The notes beneath the pieces are model-generated. The model was not told the DNA's origin, searched no databases, and saw nothing but the letters and a program-made list of their open reading frames with translations. Below, one piece after another: positions 1 to 48,555 of a stretch of DNA of 57,824 nt (positions are counted from its first letter, which is position 1; each line of letters begins with the position of its first letter). This DNA is from Christiangramia sp. (GTDB lineage Bacteria > Bacteroidota > Bacteroidia > Flavobacteriales > Flavobacteriaceae): positions 1 through 57,824 of the forward strand of contig NZ_JAPYPC010000029.1 of the NCBI RefSeq assembly GCF_029937855.1. The letters run 5' to 3'. A program made the position numbers and the translations under genes.

Positions 1-589
1 CAATGCCACAGAGTTTAGCTATTCTTTTTAAATATTTATTGAGAAGTTTAGTGGTGCTCTTTGTCCTTGTATAAATTCGTTCAGCTTGGGTTTGATCTAC
101 TTCCCGTAAAAAAGGGAATAAATATCCGTTATTTAATTTCTTATCTGGGCGATAGTAATCAATTATAATCCTAGCTTTATTCAGGACTAGTCAATAAATT
201 CTTAAATATTATATATTATAGCGCTTTAGCAACTGAATAACTCTGGGGTCATATTTATTCTGAATATGTTCGGTGGCATTGGCAAAGAATGATTTAGAAC
301 CATCTGCCCTTTTAATTTTTGTTTTATTTGCTTCGGAATAATTTTTTCTTGGAATTGAAATAATTATCATTGACTTCAAACTTCCTTTTCATCAAAAAGT
401 TATTTAACTTCTTAAAATCCGGATGAGTCTTTTTATCTTACCAGAAACGTCATCCCAATCTTTTTCAAAAACAGATTGTTCTCGCCAGACATAATTCGTT
501 TTATAATTTTGGCTAATTCTTAAGGCCAGAGGTATTCTTCCTTCTTTCTTTTTCATGTTTTTTCTCAAAATAATCTTTAAATTTGCCAT
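1..589 (-). pseudogene. Tyrosine recombinase pseudogene (internally deleted, cut by window edge)
   Basis: The sequence is nearly identical to parts of the intact integrase at 40454-41785, in the same orientation. Bases 1 to about 188 match the segment starting at 40638, which encodes the region after the catalytic Arg. The match then jumps to the segment near 41385-41773, so roughly 0.55 kb of the middle is missing. The N-terminal arm-binding region (MANLKIILRKN, start near 589) is readable, then broken by a frame change near residue 60. The catalytic Arg segment is absent, so no active recombinase can be made. The far C-terminus lies outside the window. Confidence 0.9.
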
Positions 590-960
590 ACAGTTAAGAT
601 TTAAAACCTTGTAAAACAAGAATTTATTATAGAATCAGTTGATTTTTTTTATCAAGCAGAATTTCCCGCTGAAATATTTTTCATAGGAACAGCTCAAATA
701 CCTTTAAAATACAAATATTGTGCAGGCCGATTGTGCGCCTACTAATGTTGATAGTGCAAAAAAATAAAAAAATCTGGGTCTGGTCCAATATTATTTCGAT
801 GCTATGCCTGTACCGAATGATTTAGTTTTTTTGGAAAATCCAACCTAGAGATGGGACCACCTTACTACCAAACCGCCTGATTCACAGATAACAATGTTCT
901 AGGGGACCGTGGTATTTAAGATAAATTCAAAAGAGGACAGATCTATTGGAATAAATTAGG
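590..960. other. Intergenic stretch with a degenerate coding remnant
   Basis: No intact gene. On the plus strand about 780-965 reads as protein-like sequence (VQYYFDAMPVPNDLVFLENP, then DHLTTKP and, after a frame change, RGQIYWNKLGYKS) interrupted by stops. It looks like the decayed 3' end of a gene I do not recognise, facing into the 3' end of the MFS gene. Confidence 0.4.
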
Positions 961-30061: not shown

Positions 30062-32320
30062 ATGGAGACAATTAATATATTTGAAACCGAAAAAAAGAAT
30101 CATAATCAGGGAATAAAAAAATCCTTCCCATTAACAGGGATGACCTGTGCAGCTTGTGCATCAAGCGTTGAATCTATACTTTCACATACCGAAGGTGTGA
30201 ACAAAGCCGAGGTTAACTTTGCCAGCAGTTCGGTATTGGTGGATTACGACGAAGGCACTACCGAAGAACAATTGCAAAATACTCTAAGACAGGTCGGCTA
30301 TGACATAATTATTGATGCCGAAGACCCTTCGGAAGTACAGCAAGAACTTCAGGAAAAGCATTATCAGGATATAAAAAAACGTACTATCTGGTCGGCAATC
30401 CTTACGCTACCCATTTTCGTGTTGGGAATGTTCTATATGCAATGGGAACCAGGTAAATGGATTTCTTTGGTATTAGCATTTCCTATACTCTTTTGGTTTG
30501 GACGCAGCTTTTTCATCAATGCCATCAAGCAGGCTAAACACGGTAAAGCTAATATGGATACTTTAGTCGCTTTGAGTACCGGAATCGCTTTCCTCTTTAG
30601 TGTATTTAACACTTTCTTTCCTGAATTTTGGTTGAGTCGTGGTATCGAGCCTAACGTATATTACGAAGCGGCTACCGTGATTATTACTTTTATTTCCTTG
30701 GGGAAACTATTGGAAGAAAAGGCGAAATCAAATACGTCTTCAGCCATCAAAAAACTAATGGGTCTTCAGCCTAAAACCCTTAAAATTATTGAGAATGGAG
30801 AAGAAAAGGAAATCCCAATTTCATCCGTACAAGTGGGTCAGACCATTTTGGTGCGTCCCGGAGAAAAGATTCCCGTGGATGGCGAAGTTTCCAAGGGAAG
30901 TTCGTATGTAGATGAAAGTATGATTACGGGAGAACCTGTTCCAGTTCAGAAATCCCAAGGGGAAAAGGTCTTCGCCGGTACGGTTAATCAGAAAGGAAGC
31001 TTTCAATTTACCGCTGAAAAAGTTGGTGGAGAAACCTTGCTTTCCCAAATTATTAAAATGGTTCAGCAAGCGCAAGGGAGTAAGGCACCGGTTCAAAAAC
31101 TGGTCGATAAGATTGCCGGTATCTTCGTTCCCGTGGTATTGGGTATTTCCTTTGTAACCTTCATCGTCTGGATGTCTATAGGTGGCGACAATGGCTTTTC
31201 ACAAGCCTTGTTGACCTCTGTAGCCGTGTTGATTATTGCTTGTCCCTGTGCCTTGGGCTTGGCAACGCCTACCGCCATAATGGTAGGTATCGGCAAGGGA
31301 GCAGAAAACAATATTTTGATAAAAGATGCCGAAAGTTTAGAACTTGGCCATAAAGTGAATGCAGTAATCCTTGATAAAACGGGGACGATTACAGAAGGAA
31401 AACCATTGGTAACCAACATACTTTGGAAGGACAAGCTTGAAAATCAGAACGATTACAAGAAAATTCTCTTGTCTATCGAAGCACAATCAGAACATCCCTT
31501 GGCAGAAGCCGTCGTCAATCATTTAAAAGAGGAAAATATTGTACAAGCAGAAATTATTTCCTTCGAAAGTATCACAGGAAAAGGCGTAAAGGCCCAATCA
31601 GAGAAAGGTTCAAAATATTATGTGGGCAACCATAAACTTATGGTTGAAAAGAATATTCAAATCGACGCTTCTTTGATACAAACAGCAGAAAGTCTGGAAG
31701 AGAAAGCAAAAACAGTCATATTTTTTAGTAACGAACATCAAGTTCTTGCGATACTTGCCATTGCGGACAAGATTAAAGAAACTTCAAAAAAAGCCATAGC
31801 TACGCTTCAAGAAAGAGGCATCGAGGTCTATATGCTCACGGGAGATAACAATAAAACGGCTTCTGCCGTGGCAAATCAAGTAGGGATTTCAAATTACCAG
31901 GGCGAAGTAATGCCTTCGGACAAAGCGGCTTTTGTCGAAAAATTACAGGCGGACGGAAAAATAGTCGCAATGGTTGGCGATGGTATCAACGATTCGCACG
32001 CTTTGGCGCAAGCCAATGTAAGTATTGCAATGGGTAAAGGTTCGGACATAGCAATGGATGTCGCAAAAATGACCTTGATAACGTCAGATTTGCAATCCAT
32101 CCCAAAAGCATTGGAACTGTCAAAAAGAACCGTGTTGGGCATACGTCAAAACTTATTTTGGGCATTCATTTATAACATCATCGGTATTCCAATTGCAGCG
32201 GGAATTCTGTATCCCGTAAACGGTTTTTTATTGGACCCGATGATTGCAGGCGCAGCAATGGCATTCAGTAGTGTATCTGTTGTTGCAAATAGCTTAAGAC
32301 TTAAACGAGTAAAACTTTAA
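30062..32320 (+). CDS. copA: Cu(I)-exporting P-type ATPase, CopA type (CPC)
   Basis: A 752-residue P1B-1 ATPase starting METINIFE; a TTG further up (30035) is a less likely start. One N-terminal HMA domain carries [10 protein letters not shown] (Cys29, Cys32). Membrane site CPC is Cys394-Pro-Cys396 and the phosphorylation site DKTGTIT has Asp438. The actuator motif is TGEP and the hinge motif [10 protein letters not shown]. It exports Cu(I)/Ag(I) from the cytoplasm. An HMA chaperone gene follows after 20 bases, the usual copA-copZ pairing. Confidence 0.95.
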
Positions 32321-38760: not shown

Positions 38761-39081
38761 TTAAGCTTTAAAAGTAGCACAAGCTTCTGCACATTCGCGA
38801 CATGCTTTCGCACAATCCTTACAGTGCTGTGCATCATGTTTATCACATTCCTGAGCACATTTTTCGCATACTTTTTTGCAATAATCAACTAACCCCTGTA
38901 CATCTTTATAACTGGTTGCTAAAATTTGACTTAAGGCAGAACAGGCTTCAGCACAAACATGGTCTATACGAATACAATCTACCATCATCTTTACATCATC
39001 TTCATCAAGACAGGCATCTGCACAAAAATTACAATGGTTAATACAATTTCCAAGGGCTTTAATTAGTTTTTCATTTCTCAT
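38761..39081 (-). CDS. Four-helix-bundle copper storage protein (Csp)
   Basis: A 106-residue cytosolic (no signal peptide) Csp3-like protein with Cys residues lining helices: CINHCNFCADAC, CAEACSALSQ, YCKKVCEKCAQECDKH, CKDCAKACRECAEAC. Members bind many Cu(I) ions inside a four-helix bundle. A second Csp lies at 46178-46504, on the other side of the tRNA fragment. Confidence 0.9.
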   Translation of the reverse strand: MRNEKLIKALGNCINHCNFCADACLDEDDVKMMVDCIRIDHVCAEACSALSQILATSYKDVQGLVDYCKKVCEKCAQECDKHDAQHCKDCAKACRECAEACATFKA

Positions 39082-40453: not shown

Positions 40454-41785
40454 TTAAAAGTTAATAACACTATCCAGAGCTTCATCAGCATCACGATGAA
40501 TAAAATTTGCCTGATAATTTAAAGTGGTTTTTAAATCACTATGTCTATATAATTTTTGCAGCATTAAAGGGTGAATTCTATCACCTGCAATATTTCCAAA
40601 GCTATGACGGGCTATATGATTCGATAATGTTTTATCAATGCCACAGAGTTTAGCTATTCTTTTTAAATATTTATTGAGAAGTTTAGTGGTACTCTTTGTC
40701 CGTGTATAAATTTGTTCGGCTTGAGTTTGATCTACTTCCCGTAAAAAAGGGAATAAATATCCATTATTGAATTTCTTATCTGGGCGATAGTAATCAATTA
40801 TAATCCTAGCTTTATCAGGAATTTTTAAACTTAGAGGTTTACCATTTTTTTCCATGACATAGTATAAACGTTTATCCTTGAAATCAGACCATTTTAATTT
40901 AATTACATCTGAGATTCGCATCCCGGCAAAATAAAAAGAAAACAACCATATGTTGTGAGTATGCCATATAGTTGAGTACTTCTCTAATTCGAGTGATTCT
41001 ATCTTCTCAATTTCTTCTACATTCAATCCAATTTTATTACCTGAGGATATTCTAATTTTCTCTTTCTCACCAGCAAAAGGATAATATTTCTGGGCAATTA
41101 CTCCTTCTTTAATTGCAATATTATAAAGAGTTCTAATGAAAATAAGCTGATTGGTTATTGTCCTTGGTTTATGATTCAGGTAAGAAGAACAAAATGTCTT
41201 ATATTTTCTAATAAAAGATTCGTCAATATCCCTGAATCTTAGGTTATCATTTTTTTTAAAATATGCAACGCCATCCATCCAGTGATATTTAGATCTTCTT
41301 GCCTCGCTCACTCGCTTTAACCGTCTTTGTTTAATTTCTTGGATGATTTTTGCCTTACTTCTCGAATTCTTTAGTTGTATAAATTCTTCAATATTATATA
41401 GTATTGATAACTGCGCTTTAGCAACTGAAAAAACTCCCGTGTCATATTTACTTTGAATATGTTCAGTGGCAACAGTAAAGAAAGATTTAGAGCCATCTGG
41501 CCCTTTTAATTTTTGTTTTATTTGCCTTGGCGTAATTTTTTTCTCTGCATTGAAATAGATATCATTGACTTCAATCATCCTTTTCATCAAAAAGTTATTT
41601 AACTGCTTAAAGTTTGGATGAGTCTTTTTAACCTTACAAGCAACGTTATCCCAATCTTTTTCAAATACAGAATGTCCCAGCCAAACATAATTCGTTTTAT
41701 AATTTTCGCTAATTCTTAAGGCCAGAGGTATCCTTCCATCCTTCTTTTTCATGTTTTTCCTCAAAACAATCTTTAAATTTGCCAT
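40454..41785 (-). CDS. Tyrosine recombinase (integrase) of the island
   Basis: A 443-residue site-specific recombinase of the Bacteroidetes mobile-element type. Residues 1-95 form an arm-binding domain (MANLKIVLRKNMKKKDGR), 105-220 a SAM-like core-binding domain, and 240-440 the catalytic domain with Arg290 (AGMRISDVIKL), HxxR (HIARHSF, Arg393), a His in YRHSDLKTT and the nucleophile Tyr424 (TLNYQ). All active residues are present. It abuts short direct repeats and a tRNA-Met fragment on its upstream side, as expected for integration at a tRNA 3' end. Confidence 0.95.
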   Translation of the reverse strand: MANLKIVLRKNMKKKDGRIPLALRISENYKTNYVWLGHSVFEKDWDNVACKVKKTHPNFKQLNNFLMKRMIEVNDIYFNAEKKITPRQIKQKLKGPDGSKSFFTVATEHIQSKYDTGVFSVAKAQLSILYNIEEFIQLKNSRSKAKIIQEIKQRRLKRVSEARRSKYHWMDGVAYFKKNDNLRFRDIDESFIRKYKTFCSSYLNHKPRTITNQLIFIRTLYNIAIKEGVIAQKYYPFAGEKEKIRISSGNKIGLNVEEIEKIESLELEKYSTIWHTHNIWLFSFYFAGMRISDVIKLKWSDFKDKRLYYVMEKNGKPLSLKIPDKARIIIDYYRPDKKFNNGYLFPFLREVDQTQAEQIYTRTKSTTKLLNKYLKRIAKLCGIDKTLSNHIARHSFGNIAGDRIHPLMLQKLYRHSDLKTTLNYQANFIHRDADEALDSVINF

Positions 41786-43534: not shown

Positions 43535-44881
43535 ATGAAAAAATACGATGTATTTGTAATAGGTTCCGGGATGTCAGGTATGACCGTTGCTAATAAATGT
43601 GCCTCCAAAGGCCTTAAGGTGGGCATTACCGATGAACTTCCCTACGGTGGAACCTGTGCGCTAAGAGGCTGCGATCCTAAAAAGGTGATTATAGGAGCAA
43701 CTGAAGTACGTGATTTTGCCCAAAGGCTTAAAGGAAATGGAATAGATACTGTACCTGAAGTCAATTGGGAAGATATTATGGCTTTTAAGCAATCTTTTGT
43801 GGATGCCATGCCTCCTAAAATTGAAAAAGGATATAAGAATAGGGACATAGATACCTATCACACTTCAGCTAAATTTTTATCAAATAATACCTTACAGTTA
43901 GGTGATGAAGTTATTGAAGCGGATAAATTCGTAATCGCAACAGGAGCAAAACCCCTGGCACTGGATTTTGAGGGTGGAAATTTGGCACTTTCAAGTTCAG
44001 ATTTCCTTAACCTGAAAAAATTACCTGAATCACTTTTATTTATTGGAGGTGGCTACATTGCCTTTGAATTTGCTCATATCGCTGTGCGGGCCGGTGCCGA
44101 TGTAACTATATTACATCGTGGAGAATTTCCATTGGAAAACTTTGATCGTGACCTTGTACACCATCTTGTGGATGCAACCCGAAATCTGGGAATTAAACTG
44201 ATTTTGAAAACCGAAGTTTCTAAAATTGAAAAAAAAGAAGACCACTATGTAGTAACTGGAAAATCAAATGGAAAAGAGACCACTTACAAGACAGCATCAG
44301 TCTTTAACTCGGCCGGTCGTCCTCCAGCGATTTTTGATTTGGATTTGGAAAAAGCAGGTATCTCTTTTTCAAAAAAAGGAATCACGGTCAACGATTACCT
44401 CCAAAGCACTTCTAATCATAATATTTATGCAGCGGGAGATTCAGCAGATTCTAAAGGCTTGCCTCTTACCCCTGTTGCGGTGATGGAAGGACATGTGGTG
44501 GCTTCAAACCTCATTAAAGGGAACAAGAAAAAAGTCAATTATCCCCCAATGCCTTCCGTAGTATTTACTTTACCCACACTGGCATCAGTAGGATTGACCG
44601 AAGCAGAAGCCAAATCACAACAGATAGAATATCAGGTCAATTATAACCATGCGGAAAGCTGGTTCAATGCAAAACGATTAAATGTTCAGGAATATGCCTA
44701 TAAAACCATCATTGATAAAGATACCCAGACTATTCTTGGCGCACATCTAATAGGCCCTAACGCGGAAGAAACCATCAATTTATTCGCCATGGCGATAAAG
44801 ACCAAAATGAAAATTAATGAGTTAAGGACGATGATATTTACGTATCCAACTCTGTCATCAGATATCCCTCATATGCTTTAA
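43535..44881 (+). CDS. Flavin disulfide reductase (MerA/GR-like) lacking terminal Cys pair
   Basis: A 448-residue pyridine nucleotide-disulfide oxidoreductase with FAD motif VIGSGMSGM (8-16), redox disulfide GGTCALRGCDPKK (Cys41, Cys46), a second Rossmann fold LFIGGGYIAFEFA and FAD-binding NIYAAGDSAD. It sits in a mer operon where MerA is expected, but it has neither the N-terminal HMA domain nor the C-terminal vicinal Cys pair that MerA uses to bind Hg(II); it ends SSDIPHML. It starts at the very base after merT stops. Confidence 0.85.
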   Translation: MKKYDVFVIGSGMSGMTVANKCASKGLKVGITDELPYGGTCALRGCDPKKVIIGATEVRDFAQRLKGNGIDTVPEVNWEDIMAFKQSFVDAMPPKIEKGYKNRDIDTYHTSAKFLSNNTLQLGDEVIEADKFVIATGAKPLALDFEGGNLALSSSDFLNLKKLPESLLFIGGGYIAFEFAHIAVRAGADVTILHRGEFPLENFDRDLVHHLVDATRNLGIKLILKTEVSKIEKKEDHYVVTGKSNGKETTYKTASVFNSAGRPPAIFDLDLEKAGISFSKKGITVNDYLQSTSNHNIYAAGDSADSKGLPLTPVAVMEGHVVASNLIKGNKKKVNYPPMPSVVFTLPTLASVGLTEAEAKSQQIEYQVNYNHAESWFNAKRLNVQEYAYKTIIDKDTQTILGAHLIGPNAEETINLFAMAIKTKMKINELRTMIFTYPTLSSDIPHML

Positions 44882-44894
44882 AAATAAATAGATT

Positions 44895-45101
44895 ATGGAA
44901 ATAGAACTAGTTTCTACCATTACATGTCCTGGTTGCGGACACACAAAAGAAGAGGAAATGCCCACAACAGCCTGTCAGTTTTTTTACCAATGTGATAATT
45001 GCAAGCATTTATTAAAACCAAAAGAAGGTGATTGCTGTGTTTATTGTTCTTATGGTACTCTTGCCTGTCCACCCATTCAGGAAGGAACAAATTGCTGCTA
45101 A
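44895..45101 (+). CDS. GDCCVxC small Cys-rich protein
   Basis: A 68-residue protein with 11 Cys: CPGC (11, 14), Cys27, CDNC (33, 36), GDCCVYC (47, 48, 51), CPPIQ (58) and a terminal Cys67-Cys68. The GDCCVxC motif names the family, found in metal-resistance operons. It ends in a vicinal pair like the one missing from the reductase encoded 14 bases upstream, so it may serve as a separate Hg(II) donor to it. That role is inferred. Confidence 0.85.
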   Translation: MEIELVSTITCPGCGHTKEEEMPTTACQFFYQCDNCKHLLKPKEGDCCVYCSYGTLACPPIQEGTNCC

Positions 45102-45115
45102 AAATTTAAAATACT

Positions 45116-45149
45116 TTTGGTGACCTCCCCCACTCCAGATGTATCTTGC
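45116..45149 (+). promoter_or_regulatory. CsoR-type promoter/operator, copy A
   Basis: TTTG at 45116-45119, a 22-base spacer holding GACCTCCCCCACT, then TATCTTGC as a weaker -7 box at 45142. Fourth member of the repeated promoter family, placed 14 bases before the CsoR-like start, so autoregulation is likely. Confidence 0.65.
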
Positions 45150-45163
45150 TGAAAATTAAAAGT

Positions 45164-45538
45164 ATGATTCCTAGAGATCTAAGTAAAGATATAAAAACCC
45201 GTTTGCAGAGCATTAGCGGCCAACTTAACGGTCTTATAAAAATGCTGGATGAGGATCAAGATCCGGAAAAGATCCTGATCCAGTTCAAAGCAGCGCAAAA
45301 AGGGCTCGATAAGGCGCATTTTCTCCTTTTAGATGAAGTGTACCGCAAAGCTCTGGCGATCACAATTTCAGAAACTGTGGAAGCCTGTCCCGGTAATTGC
45401 GGTAATGAGGAACGGATTGAATTTATAAGAAAACAGTTTCCTGATCTTGAGCTTAACAGCCTTACCGATAAAATGAAAGAGATTGATGAACTTAAACGAA
45501 GGCTGGAATCTTACATTTCCGAAAATAGATCAGAGTAA
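45164..45538 (+). CDS. CsoR/RcnR-like regulator with atypical Cys motif
   Basis: A 124-residue all-helical regulator of the CsoR/RcnR (DUF156) group: DIKTRLQSISGQLNGLIKML and ILIQFKAAQKGLDKAHFLL. The family's usual Cys-His-Cys copper ligands are missing (the first Cys position reads Ile/Gln; the His-x3-Cys of helix 2 reads Glu-x3-Ala). Instead, a CPGNC motif (Cys75, Cys79) lies after helix 2, followed by an extended C-terminal helix. It probably senses a thiophilic metal with this new site and controls the four promoters at 45116, 45603, 46069 and 46636. Confidence 0.8.
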   Translation: MIPRDLSKDIKTRLQSISGQLNGLIKMLDEDQDPEKILIQFKAAQKGLDKAHFLLLDEVYRKALAITISETVEACPGNCGNEERIEFIRKQFPDLELNSLTDKMKEIDELKRRLESYISENRSE

Positions 45539-45571
45539 AACATTCAAAAATTTAGGTTTTATTTCATAATA

Positions 45572-45602
45572 AAAATCTGTCTTTTAAAAGGCAGATTTTT
45601 TG
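45572..45602 (+). terminator. Terminator after the CsoR-like gene
   Basis: Arms AAAATCTGTCTTTT and AAAAGGCAGATTTT (one wobble pair) followed by T's. It directly abuts promoter copy B. Confidence 0.75.
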
Positions 45603-45636
45603 TTTGGAGACCACCCCGGTTCCGCTCTTATCTTTG
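45603..45636 (+). promoter_or_regulatory. CsoR-type promoter/operator, copy B
   Basis: TTTG at 45603-45606, exactly 22 bases (GAGACCACCCCGGTTCC at the core), then a perfect -7 box TATCTTTG at 45629-45636. Drives the thioredoxin-fold gene. Confidence 0.8.
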
Positions 45637-45690
45637 AACTGTTCTTTTTAAAAGAGCGATAAAACCGATTGTTAATTTAAATTCAGAGAA

Positions 45691-45963
45691 ATGAAACGAC
45701 AAATAGAAATATTTACGGCAAATTGTCCGGTATGTGATCCAGTAGTGAAAATGGTAAAAGAGTTGTCCTGCGATAGTTGCGAAATTACCACCTATAACCT
45801 GGTGGAACAATGTGATGATAAATCTTGTTTAAACAAAATGCAGGAATATGGTGTAAAGAGAATCCCGGCAGTGGCAGTTGATGGTAAATTACTTGAATGC
45901 TGTACAAACATTGGGATTAGTAAAGAAAAGCTTATCGAAGCAGGAATAGGAAAAGCCGAATAA
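45691..45963 (+). CDS. Thioredoxin-fold small protein with CPVC motif
   Basis: A 90-residue thioredoxin/glutaredoxin-like protein: IEIFTANCPVCDPVV (Cys12, Cys15), then SCDSC (27, 30), QCDDKSC, the cis-Pro segment VKRIPAVAVDGKLLECC. It has nine Cys in all, far more than a plain glutaredoxin, which suggests a metal or thiol transfer role. It has its own CsoR-type promoter and terminator, so it forms a single-gene unit. Confidence 0.82.
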   Translation: MKRQIEIFTANCPVCDPVVKMVKELSCDSCEITTYNLVEQCDDKSCLNKMQEYGVKRIPAVAVDGKLLECCTNIGISKEKLIEAGIGKAE

Positions 45964-46000
45964 GAAAACCATCGCACTTAATTATAACCTGAAACTTTTT

Positions 46001-46030
46001 ATGGCAGCCATTTTGGGCTGTCATTTTTGT
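46001..46030 (+). terminator. Terminator after the thioredoxin-fold gene
   Basis: Arms ATGGCAGCC and GGCTGTCAT (one wobble pair), 6-base loop, followed by TTTTTG and more T's. Confidence 0.75.
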
Positions 46031-46068
46031 TTTTAACCGAATTAAGATGTTAAACCTTTACTAATCGG

Positions 46069-46102
46069 CTTGCCTACCCCCCGGGCTGTGATCCGATCTT
46101 TG
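46069..46102 (+). promoter_or_regulatory. CsoR-type promoter/operator, copy C
   Basis: CTTG at 46069-46072 (one mismatch to TTTG), 22 bases with CCTACCCCCCGGGCTG, then GATCTTTG at 46095-46102 (one mismatch to TATCTTTG). Precedes the second copper-storage gene. Confidence 0.72.
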
Positions 46103-46177
46103 AAAAGAGGTTCGGCTCTTAATCTTTTATTCCTGATTTCCGAACAGATCAGGAAATAACTAAAACCATTTTAAATT

Positions 46178-46504
46178 ATGAAACCATTAAGTTCAGAAAT
46201 CCAAAAATGCATCGATGAGTGCAACGCCTGTATAACTGCGGCCAGGATCTGCCTGGATCAGCATTTGGGGGAACCAGACATGAAACAATGCCACAAGTTC
46301 TGTCTCGATTGTATTGCCCTATGCAGTGCATGTGTCCAGTTATTGACCAGCCAGTCTGATTACGCAAACCGTGTTTGCGGCATTTGTGCCGACTTATGTA
46401 AAGCCTGTGCAGTTGAGTGCGCGAAGTTTGACAGTGAAGTTTGCCAGCAATGCGCGGAAAAATGTCGTACCTGTGCCGATAGCTGTAAAAAAATGGCAGC
46501 TTAA
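46178..46504 (+). CDS. Four-helix-bundle copper storage protein (Csp), second copy
   Basis: A 108-residue Csp3-like protein without signal peptide. Cys pairs line each helix: CIDECNACITAARIC, CHKFCLDCIALCSAC, CGICADLCKACAVEC, CQQCAEKCRTCADSC. It would store Cu(I), or another soft metal, in the cytosol. Own promoter (copy C) and terminator. Similar in design to 38761-39081 but clearly diverged in sequence. Confidence 0.9.
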   Translation: MKPLSSEIQKCIDECNACITAARICLDQHLGEPDMKQCHKFCLDCIALCSACVQLLTSQSDYANRVCGICADLCKACAVECAKFDSEVCQQCAEKCRTCADSCKKMAA

Positions 46505-46526
46505 AAAAGTTGTAGGATTTTTTCTC

Positions 46527-46556
46527 AAAGGAGCGGCTAAAAAGTTGCTCCTTTTT
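46527..46556 (+). terminator. Terminator after Csp
   Basis: Arms AAAGGAGC and GCTCCTTT, 12-base loop, followed by a T-run. Confidence 0.8.
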
Positions 46557-46635
46557 TATAAAAGGGATTATGAAGTAGGTAAAAATACTGTTCACTCTCT
46601 CATTCAAAACTACCTATAAAAAAAAGCCTTTAGAG

Positions 46636-46669
46636 GTTTGGATACCACCCGGGCTTCCTGAGTACATTT
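46636..46669 (+). promoter_or_regulatory. CsoR-type promoter/operator, copy D
   Basis: TTTG at 46636-46639, 22 bases with GATACCACCCGGGCTTCC, then TACATTTG at 46662-46669 (perfect TAnnTTTG). Precedes the MerT-like gene. Confidence 0.78.
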
Positions 46670-46695
46670 GATCCCTTGGTTAAAACAACAATATA

Positions 46696-47094
46696 ATGTT
46701 TACTAAAATAAAAGAAGATTTTGTAAGTATAGGATCATTGTTCACCTCGGTTTCCACACTTTTATGTTGCGCGCTGCCATCGTTACTGGTAGCTCTGGGA
46801 ATGGGCGCCGTGGTGGCCGGCCTGGCTTCAGATATTCCCTGGTTGTTCAGCCTGAGCCGCTACAAAGGCTGGACTTTTTTGATCGCCGGGGTGATGATTG
46901 GCTTTAACTTTTGGCTTTTCTACGGAAGAAAACGGCAGCAGAGCTGTGAAATAGATGAAGACGGAAATGAAACGGCCTGTGATACAGCAGCTAAATGGAG
47001 CAAAGGGATCTTATGGTTTTCCTTTGTGTTATATCTTTTTGGACTTTTTGCAGCCTATTTACTTTTTCCCATTCAAAAATTTTTAGAATTATAA
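46696..47094 (+). CDS. MerT/MerC-like membrane transporter
   Basis: A 132-residue protein with three membrane helices. Helix 1 has a vicinal pair in TLLCCALPSL (Cys24, Cys25), the metal-uptake motif of MerT/MerC. A cytoplasmic loop carries RQQSCEIDEDGNETACDTAA with two more Cys. No MerP domain, unlike the fusion at 42911-43534. It may import or pass on a thiophilic metal. It shares a unit with the outer-membrane protein 10 bases downstream. Confidence 0.82.
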   Translation: MFTKIKEDFVSIGSLFTSVSTLLCCALPSLLVALGMGAVVAGLASDIPWLFSLSRYKGWTFLIAGVMIGFNFWLFYGRKRQQSCEIDEDGNETACDTAAKWSKGILWFSFVLYLFGLFAAYLLFPIQKFLEL

Positions 47095-47104
47095 TATAAT
47101 TAAA

Positions 47105-47944
47105 ATGAAGACATATTTTTTGATCCTGGGTATAGGATTATTGACGTTGTATCAAGTAGAAGCCCAGGGACATGGCCCGATTTATGGTTTGCAGACGCCC
47201 ACCCTGGCAAAAGGGGGTATAAACATGAACGTTGCCGGAATGAGTATAGCGACCGAAGACGAAACCTCCTATATGCTTCGGCACACACTTTTTTATGGCC
47301 TTACAGAAGATTTACAGATTACCCTTACCACTCCTACAATAATTGAACGTTTAGAAAAAGCTCCACGAACCCGTGGGAATAACATGATGCCTGCCAATGG
47401 AGATATAGAAGCTGCCCTTTGGTACCGGTTCTTTTCAAATGCTTTTGGTGTAGGGAAAAGATTTGAGTCCACAGCGATTTTAGGGGTATCTGCCCCTACT
47501 GAAGATATTCGTGGACAGGTAAATGTGGGAAATTCCATTCTCGGGGCAATTTCTACGGGATATGCCTCACGTACCTGGTACGCGTGGATAGGCGGTGGTT
47601 ACCAGTATTACTTTGAGAAAAATTATGAACAACTCGGCGACCTGCCTTACGCGAGTGCCGTAGTTGGATATCGCCCCAATATTTTTATGGGAGATTACCC
47701 CAAGCCAGATTGGAGGATCTTTATAGAATCCCTTGCAGAATTCCCTGGAGATAATAAATATACCGGGCAAGCAAATTTTACAGACGAACGTAGCAAAAAA
47801 GTACTAGTGGGGCCTTCCTTTTTGGGACTTTACGGTGCCTGGGGGATTTCTTTTGGAGCACTATTTCCAGTGGTACAGGATTTAACCCCAGGGGCAGTTA
47901 AAGAAAACTATCGGGTATCCCTTAATTTAAGTTATTGGCTATAG
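47105..47944 (+). CDS. Outer-membrane beta-barrel transporter-like protein
   Basis: A 279-residue protein with a signal peptide (YFLILGIGLLTLYQVEAQ) and a mature part of alternating beta strands (MLRHTLFYGLTEDLQITLTT, TGYASRTWYAWIGGGYQYYF) ending in a terminal aromatic (SLNLSYWL), as in outer-membrane barrels. It resembles the MetA-pathway/porin-like family. Position after the MerT-like gene under a CsoR-type promoter suggests metal passage across the outer membrane. Confidence 0.78.
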   Translation: MKTYFLILGIGLLTLYQVEAQGHGPIYGLQTPTLAKGGINMNVAGMSIATEDETSYMLRHTLFYGLTEDLQITLTTPTIIERLEKAPRTRGNNMMPANGDIEAALWYRFFSNAFGVGKRFESTAILGVSAPTEDIRGQVNVGNSILGAISTGYASRTWYAWIGGGYQYYFEKNYEQLGDLPYASAVVGYRPNIFMGDYPKPDWRIFIESLAEFPGDNKYTGQANFTDERSKKVLVGPSFLGLYGAWGISFGALFPVVQDLTPGAVKENYRVSLNLSYWL

Positions 47945-48069: not shown

Positions 48070-48555
48070 ATGAAAAGAATAGCATTAATAATTGTAGTAA
48101 TGGTAGTTGGAAGTTTTAGTTCCAATGCCCAGATTCAGAAAATAAATCAGGAAGTGTTTGGAATGGACTGTGCCCCATGTGCCTATGGACTGGAACGGGG
48201 ACTTAAAAAAATGGACGGCCTGGAAAGTGTAAAAGTGAGTCTTAATGATGGTAAAGCTTATCTGGAGTTGGCAAAAAATAATAATTTGAGCCTTAGACAG
48301 ATCCAAGAAGAAGTAAAAAAGAACGGTTTTTCAGCTAAGAAAGCCGAAATAGCTATAAATGGCAAGCTCGTTGAGCAGGATGGTACTTATATAATTCAAA
48401 CCGGGAAAGAAAATTTTGCGATAGCTGATGAAACTTCTAACAGCTTACGTTCCAGACTAAAGCCCGGAGTCCTTACAGTGAAAGGGATAGTTCAGGATGA
48501 AGAAGATGATAATTTAACTAATAACTGGAAATTAAAAATCATCCAGATTTATTAG
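48070..48555 (+). CDS. Periplasmic HMA-domain protein
   Basis: A 161-residue protein with signal peptide (to about residue 20), then an HMA domain with FGMDCAPCAYGL (Cys34, Cys37) and a C-terminal strand-rich half (VEQDGTYIIQTGKENFAI) of unknown type. MerP-like exported metal binder. It is followed by a strong terminator and so stands alone. Confidence 0.8.
   Translation: MKRIALIIVVMVVGSFSSNAQIQKINQEVFGMDCAPCAYGLERGLKKMDGLESVKVSLNDGKAYLELAKNNNLSLRQIQEEVKKNGFSAKKAEIAINGKLVEQDGTYIIQTGKENFAIADETSNSLRSRLKPGVLTVKGIVQDEEDDNLTNNWKLKIIQIY

Follow-up and report, generated by a model that had tools for sequence, protein, structure and literature searches.

A 57,824-nucleotide stretch of DNA from the marine bacterium Christiangramia sp. 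(positions 1-57,824 of contig NZ_JAPYPC010000029.1, assembly GCF_029937855.1; hereafter the window) carries four promoter sites in which a TTTG element, or CTTG in one case, lies exactly 22 nucleotides upstream of a -7 box of the type TAnnTTTG. The sites precede genes for a CsoR-like protein of the DUF156 family, a thioredoxin-fold protein (Trx), a copper storage (Csp)-like protein and a MerT-like unit, and constitute a well-defined, searchable promoter code. The reading that we place first, at just short of an even chance, is that they are sigma-A promoters of a single metal-resistance regulon, read by the CsoR-like protein in the manner of a MerR regulator. Plain repression by the same protein ranks close behind.

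Four promoter sites with a fixed spacer

All four copies named in the original prediction, which was made from the sequence of the window, measured exactly 22 bases between the two elements. The predicted coordinates 45116, 45603 and 46069 were confirmed; the fourth, given as 46636, is 46637, and two of the -7 boxes, TATCTTGC at site 1 and GATCTTTG at site 3, deviate from TAnnTTTG. Common to the four spacers are ACC.CCC (spacer positions 4-6 and 8-10) and a T at position 15; a pattern built from these shared bases, and so fitted to the sites themselves, matched the window four times and had no match in 100 dinucleotide shuffles. The start codons (45164, 45691, 46178 and 46696) lie 48-109 nucleotides from the site starts, and site 1 is most likely an autoregulatory site of the CsoR-like gene. 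The -33 and -10 elements resemble those of the housekeeping sigma factor. The spacers differ from those of the usual promoters of Bacteroides thetaiotaomicron, described in a map of that species as AT-rich and variable in length (PMC7366714).

Across the whole 3.9-Mb genome, a fitted pattern had five matches, compared with none in a reversed control. A further copy of the module, diverged from the first and divided between contigs C64 and C77 (loci L006 and L009), adds four 22-nucleotide sites upstream of CsoR-like, Csp, MFS-like and HMA-like genes (the latter two named by eye); the Csp copy on C64 is preceded by the same site as the Csp-like gene of the window. A looser pattern matched the genome eight times, versus once in the control, and seven of the eight matches fall in the two module copies. 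The MFS site has TTAG and falls outside the looser pattern, so that further sites without TTG may have been missed. The eighth match, on contig C46, lies within a 199-residue open reading frame on the opposite strand. A regulon dispersed over the genome, as originally proposed, was not found with this pattern; on this evidence it looks clustered.

Conservation of the spacing in related loci

We compared the best 80 of 122 related loci confirmed in a scan of named genomes. The core TTTGGNNACCNCC, searched alone without the -7 box, gave 73 exact matches. A -7 box (TAnnTTTG, at least five of six bases) stood at 22 nucleotides in 57 of these and at 21 in four, and at no other distance from 14 to 31; among the remaining 12, ten have TAnnTTGC at 22 (by eye), and the match in L076 looks like chance. 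Counted as distinct 34-mers (n = 42), 32 sites have the box at 22 nucleotides, two at 21 and eight lack it. Allowing one core mismatch (n = 83) gave 24 boxes at 22, two at 21 and six elsewhere, and with two mismatches (n = 918) no distance was preferred.

The Trx site is the most widely kept of the regulon, scoring at least 8/10 in 66 of the 67 loci with a Trx match. The same geometry is shared by promoters of CsoR-like, Trx, Csp, MFS, HMA and MerT-like genes and, in Adhaeribacter, of a P-type ATPase gene. The regulator gene has an upstream site scoring at least 8/10 in 44 of the 80 loci (at 45-70 nucleotides in 42 of them); given that only these 44 have one, autoregulation is not universal. 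Across 42 distinct Trx sites, conservation is strong at the -33 element, core and -7 box and nearly absent from the downstream spacer half.

It could be asked whether all this reflects nothing but descent from one promoter that was duplicated and passed on horizontally, without any regulation. Many of the loci are recent relatives, and their Trx promoters are probably all orthologous; however, the core, the -33 and -7 elements and the length were kept in the face of free divergence in the downstream spacer half, and the geometry persists at different genes, under a different promoter consensus and at 32-39% protein identity. We consider this explanation very improbable.

The core had been taken for the C/G-tract pseudo-palindrome of a CsoR-type operator, a claim that did not hold. 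In 64 distinct sites the best dyad paired 4.23 of nine positions, slightly below the 4.39 (sd 0.09) of shuffled spacers, and conservation is mainly in the upstream spacer half. Classical CsoR operators are described as G-tract pseudo-palindromes (PMC3902906, PMC10318464); the sites lack one and were therefore rejected as operators of that class.

The -7 box also varies with the gene. In the regulator's own promoter (window 45142-45149 and orthologues) it is often TAnnTTG: 14 of 24 distinct sites carry G at the base where Trx promoters, with their TAnnTTTG box, carry T in 40 of 42. The TAnnTTG form recalls the TAnnTTGY box reported to mark a separate promoter class, SM5, in Flavobacterium psychrophilum (PMC9723704).

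Comparison with usual spacer lengths

Among noncoding TTTG/TAnnTTTG pairs of the loci and the window, those lacking the core were mostly spaced by 20 nucleotides (24 pairs, with eight at 19, five at 21 and two at 22), and core-bearing pairs by 22 (24 pairs, with two at 21, two at 26 and nine at 34). When the core was required to lie within 13 nucleotides of TTTG, 37 pairs stood at 22, two at 21 and two at 26, and the 34-nucleotide pairs were gone. An initial baseline from 160-nucleotide upstream regions held too few boxes and was replaced. After similar promoters had been merged and 604 kb of the Christiangramia sp. genome added, the core-less clusters numbered eight at 19, 11 at 20, six at 21 and six at 22. 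In the Christiangramia genome alone, measured from TTG, 15 pairs stood at 19 (control 6) and nine at 20 (control 7). That 22 nucleotides is about 2 above a weakly defined usual length of 19-20 in Bacteroidota is supported but not proven.

Distant relatives of the regulator that share its CPGxC motif (32-39% protein identity) were found in 12 of 100 genomes by a class search, and five came from a phylum-wide search (E 8.7e-15 to 6.1e-25). In their loci, the C-rich box directly follows TTGACA, and the sites read as ordinary TTGACA promoters. Eleven promoter-like core sites (eight loci, seven genomes) show TTGACA-N19-TAnnTT in nine cases and the -10 element at 18 in two; L206:597, listed beside them, was dropped for want of a credible box and is one of eight further core matches in these loci with no fitting -10 at 19 or 18. 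By -10 score alone, the best distance is 19 for six of the 11 sites, 18 for two and a different one for three; in a control of 38 noncoding TTG[AT]C[AG] elements without the core in the same loci, 19 was chosen in six. Counted from TTG, TTGACA-N19 is TTG-N22 and so matches the distance in the Bacteroidota sites, which adds support for the excess length. Where the optimal spacer is given as 17 and that of MerR promoters as 19-20 (PMC8113463), the 19 nucleotides of the distant relatives are 2 above the optimum.

The CsoR-like regulator

The 45164 protein matches PF02583 at 52.6 bits (cut-off 22.8), and seven of seven relatives tested also match this family. Its closest solved structures are CsoR and InrS (E 0.002 or worse), and alignment to the Protein Data Bank places P34, V59 and A63 at the CsoR Cu(I) ligands Cys36, His61 and Cys65; in an alignment of members (A1), P34 is invariant and V59 and A63 nearly so. 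The Cys-His-Cys (or C-H-H) ligand set of CsoR copper sensors is absent; instead, C75, P76, G77 and C79 are found in every one of 26 aligned members. Since the 80-locus scan itself used the pattern CPG[ND]CGN, this invariance is meaningful only for members found by homology, in the search of 299 family genomes and the phylum-wide search. In CstR persulfide sensors, the CsoR positions W and Y are both Cys; this pair is absent as well, P34 and A63 standing there.

An AlphaFold2 single-chain model is all-helical (pLDDT 88.7). Foldseek ranked CsoR-family structures (CsoR, InrS, CstR, FrmR) in all of places 1-22, with TM 0.30-0.48 by query length and a best E of 0.011, none being below 0.001. The CPGxC motif is placed after a long helix, and the protein also has a C-terminal extension. 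On these comparisons the protein is a member of the DUF156 family but, at variance with the original prediction, not an ordinary CsoR.

In the L146 and L022 regulators (and L147, by open reading frame), the frame continues into a C-terminal HMA metal-binding domain, and this in-frame fusion ties the clade to soft metals. Genes of the regulon and its neighborhood encode Csp, MerT-like and HMA proteins, a P-type ATPase, a multicopper oxidase and a TonB receptor, and fit Cu/Ag or Hg. DUF156 proteins are by default annotated as metal-sensing repressors, and the present clade breaks both the Cys-His-Cys and the pseudo-palindrome rules. A literature search by titles and abstract beginnings returned nothing on a CPGxC clade of DUF156, which is weak evidence of novelty.

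Which protein reads the sites

The CsoR-like protein is present in 16 of the 299 family genomes, 14 of which have 22-nucleotide sites at the locus; in one genome (G118) the regulator has an in-frame stop. Fifteen of these 16, and none of the remaining family genomes, have the thioredoxin-fold gene. The strict pattern TTTGGNNACCNCCCN13ANNTTTG matched four of the 299 genomes, all with the CsoR-like gene, and its reversed control matched one other genome. A broader pattern matched 13, of which 11 have the gene; in each of the other two, G104 and G225, the match falls within a long open frame. Plasmid searches found relatives on six Hymenobacteraceae plasmids, labeled 'metal-sensing transcriptional repressor' in RefSeq, plus one partial Lacticaseibacillus match. 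The phylum-wide protein search had matches in 93 of 395 genomes, mostly from one family with weak matches; judged by eye, its members have Cys where CsoR does and GGGTAT-type palindromes in the upstream DNA, and the family was rejected and left uncounted.

Another protein could read the sites, namely the ArsR of the locus, a MerR-type protein encoded at an unlinked place or an alternative sigma factor that takes the box for its -35 element, with the CsoR-like gene as passenger or target. Because the sites and the CsoR-like gene are linked, linkage and regulation are not fully separable; the geometry is also MerR-like. The locus ArsR protein occurs in 60 of the 299 family genomes (E 1e-15), including 12 of the 13 that carry the broader pattern; however, 48 of the 60 lack the pattern, versus five of the 16 with the CsoR-like gene, so that the sites track the CsoR-like gene more closely. 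Of 17 loci among the 80 without an ArsR match (some of them short), 12 keep the Trx site. These distributions disfavor ArsR, the resemblance of the -33/-10 elements to those of the housekeeping sigma factor speaks against an alternative one, and no MerR was seen among ten window genes and ten representatives of neighboring clusters, unlinked MerR genes not having been searched. We thus regard another reader as unlikely. Of the proposal of one regulon under an adjoining CsoR-type regulator, the single regulon, the site at the regulator's own promoter and the CsoR-like protein as the likeliest regulator stand; the ordinary CsoR and the dispersal do not.

Spacer remodeling or plain repression

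In the MerR-like working that we tentatively prefer, the CsoR-like protein would recognize the asymmetric box G-N-G/T-A-C-C-N-C-C-C directly behind the -33 element, in a spacer held about 2 nucleotides too long for RNA polymerase (TTG-N22-TA compared with about TTG-N20-TA). At rest, the protein sitting in the spacer would hold expression from the promoter low, that of its own gene included. Once a soft metal or an oxidant had reacted with the CPGxC cysteines, the protein, or spacer DNA shifted to an underwound A-like form, would bring the -33 and -7 elements into register. From sequence we infer direct binding of the sites, activation over mere derepression and a Cu(I), Ag(I) or Hg(II) signal. 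MerR proteins are reported to remodel 19-bp spacers, EcmrR with an 82-degree under-twist (PMC8113463), and binding of Streptomyces lividans CsoR to raise the A-DNA character of its operator (PMC3902906). Such an increase in A-form would shorten and untwist a spacer, which is the same direction as with EcmrR.

Alternatively, the CsoR-like protein may simply block RNA polymerase from the C-rich box and be released when CPGxC reacts with a metal or oxidant, the long spacer compensating for the shorter A-like helix of the C-tract or keeping derepressed promoters modest. This account is possible, if less probable than the MerR-like one. It has the precedent of the DUF156 family, and the site stands at the regulator's own promoter in 42 of the 80 loci, as in autorepression. 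The operator of Mycobacterium tuberculosis CsoR is reported to overlap -10 and -35 (PMC10318464), and G/C-tracts to have A-DNA character (PMC3902906). However, a plain repressor needs no fixed distance to the -7 box, yet where that box is clear, in 61 sites, it stands at 22 nucleotides in 57, and nine of the 11 TTGACA-type sites have the equivalent distance. A perfect TTGACA with a 19-nucleotide spacer has the look of the activator-dependent mer promoters. Given that the sequence between box and -7 element drifts but its length does not, we favor spacer remodeling.

Several observations weigh against this preference. The 11 TTGACA-type sites were selected as noncoding or with a fair -10 element: in the unselected 19 core matches TAnnTT stands at 19 in nine, at 18 in one and at 16 in one, and eight lack it at any of 14-22 nucleotides; a better-scoring -10 lies at another distance in L203, L204 (4432) and L195. 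The 19-20 baseline is weak, with 13 and 25 nucleotides also having eight clusters each, and in the Christiangramia genome alone TTG stands at 24 in 11 pairs (control 5). The loci are related or horizontally transferred, and hence are not independent trials. The Trx promoter of L082 has seemingly lost its -7 box through a deletion, a clear site is missing upstream of 36 of the 80 regulator genes, and two genomes (G238 and G114) carry the CsoR-like gene with no site found; ArsR, as noted, accompanies nearly all genomes with the broader pattern. To our knowledge, the characterized DUF156 proteins are all repressors, and a phrase search of the literature for CsoR activators found no paper. The sites showed no dyad in the shuffling test, and MerR operators are dyads. 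Most CsoR operators, too, are reported as pseudo-palindromes (PMC10318464).

The wider proposal, that a whole clade of the CsoR family has turned from repressor to MerR-like promoter remodeler through a CPGxC signal and stabilization of the A-form, we hold with more reserve than the MerR-like reading of the four sites, and it may well be wrong. Clade-wide, remodeling would compress and untwist the DNA so that RNA polymerase engages, at promoters of two consensus types. If true, a fold other than that of MerR may have arrived at a stretched-spacer mechanism. The sites are also candidate inducible promoters for Bacteroidota.

Relation to known systems

With the CsoR, RcnR, InrS, FrmR and CstR repressors, the present system shares the PF02583 domain, a helical fold, a C-rich site that overlaps the promoter, the presence of such a site in front of the regulator gene itself, and metal-resistance targets. 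Unlike them, it has P/V/A in place of Cys-His-Cys, CPGxC after the long helix, a C-terminal extension and an asymmetric site that is no palindrome and keeps a fixed position within a lengthened spacer. Promoters of the MerR family (MerR, CueR, BmrR, EcmrR) are similar in having the operator at a fixed position in a spacer about 2 nucleotides over the optimum, good -35 and -10 elements and metal-resistance genes; here, however, the likeliest regulator is a DUF156 protein and the spacer has no dyad.

In the RicR regulon of M. tuberculosis, as proposed here, a CsoR-family protein is reported to control several units and its own gene (PMC10141476). RicR units are scattered over the genome, whereas the present ones are clustered in one module. 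TTHA1953 of Thermus thermophilus is likewise reported as a DUF156 protein with a departing recognition sequence, but it binds a 20-bp palindrome that lacks a C-tract, and its targets are sulfur oxidation genes (PMC10318464). For the Bacteroidota that it covers, a marine genome survey names only two-component and extracytoplasmic function (ECF) sigma copper systems (PMC10141476).

Other features of the module

Hairpins followed by T-runs were found at three places (Table 1), in agreement with the predicted terminators between the units; a stricter consensus scan named only that at 46001-46024. Pfam and NCBIfam scans assigned no family to the 279-residue protein of the MerT-like unit, a putative outer-membrane protein by its earlier label. 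The HMA-domain protein that follows is probably exported and part of the same unit.

Table 1. Promoter sites, genes and terminators of the module, in window coordinates
Feature	Position	Strand	Evidence
Site 1, promoter of CsoR-like gene	45116..45149	+	TTTG-22-TATCTTGC
CsoR-like DUF156 regulator, 124 residues	45164..45538	+	Pfam PF02583, E 6e-14; CPGNC at residues 75-79
Terminator hairpin 3' of CsoR-like gene	45571..45600	+	Fold of 45560-45606: -12.9 kcal/mol, z -5.1
Site 2, promoter of thioredoxin-fold gene	45603..45636	+	TTTG-22-TATCTTTG
Thioredoxin/glutaredoxin-fold protein, 90 residues, CPVC	45691..45963	+	PF13192, E 5e-7
Terminator hairpin between thioredoxin-fold and Csp-like units	46001..46024	+	-14.1 kcal/mol, z -5.3
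Site 3, promoter of Csp-like gene	46069..46102	+	CTTG-22-GATCTTTG
Cys-rich protein, Csp (copper storage) type	46178..46504	+	NCBIfam TIGR04401, E 2.8e-11; under cut-off (43.8 versus 100 bits)
Terminator hairpin 3' of Csp-like gene	46528..46553	+	Fold of 46510-46562: -17.5 kcal/mol, z -3.9
Site 4, promoter of MerT-like unit	46637..46670	+	TTTG-22-TACATTTG; orthologous site in loci L067 and L070
MerT-like membrane protein	46696..47094	+	PF02411, E 1.9e-4; under cut-off (21.9 versus 32.9 bits)
279-residue protein, MerT-like unit	47105..47944	+	Related open reading frames in 33 of 80 loci
HMA-domain protein	48070..48555	+	PF00403, E 4e-9

Directly upstream, the regulator gene is adjoined by a gene for a GDCCVxC-domain (seleno)protein (44895-45101; 104.7 bits, cut-off 40), and a cluster related to it is present in 31 of the 80 loci. 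A MerA-like flavoprotein (43535-44881) falls under the MerA cut-off (295.8 versus 454 bits). Mercuric reductases have a C-terminal Cys pair; this protein ends in SSDIPHML, without that pair. A second Cys-rich protein, Csp-like by eye, is encoded at 38761-39081 on the minus strand, and the region upstream of it has no match to the window pattern or the loose genome pattern. Extra MFS-, DoxX-, SnoaL- and HMA-like genes (by eye) are present in the diverged module copy on C64 and C77.

The CopA-like protein of the window (30062-32320) is 92-93% identical to the product of the gene after the Trx unit in five family genomes (loci L030, L032, L033, L035 and L036), an identity across genomes that is a sign of recent transfer. 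Lastly, a 71-residue fragment at 404-619 (minus strand) matches, in 41 of 50 residues, the start of a 443-residue open reading frame at 40454-41785 (minus strand) that is recombinase-like by eye; flanking as they do a 40-kb stretch with metal genes, the two are perhaps the borders of a genomic island.

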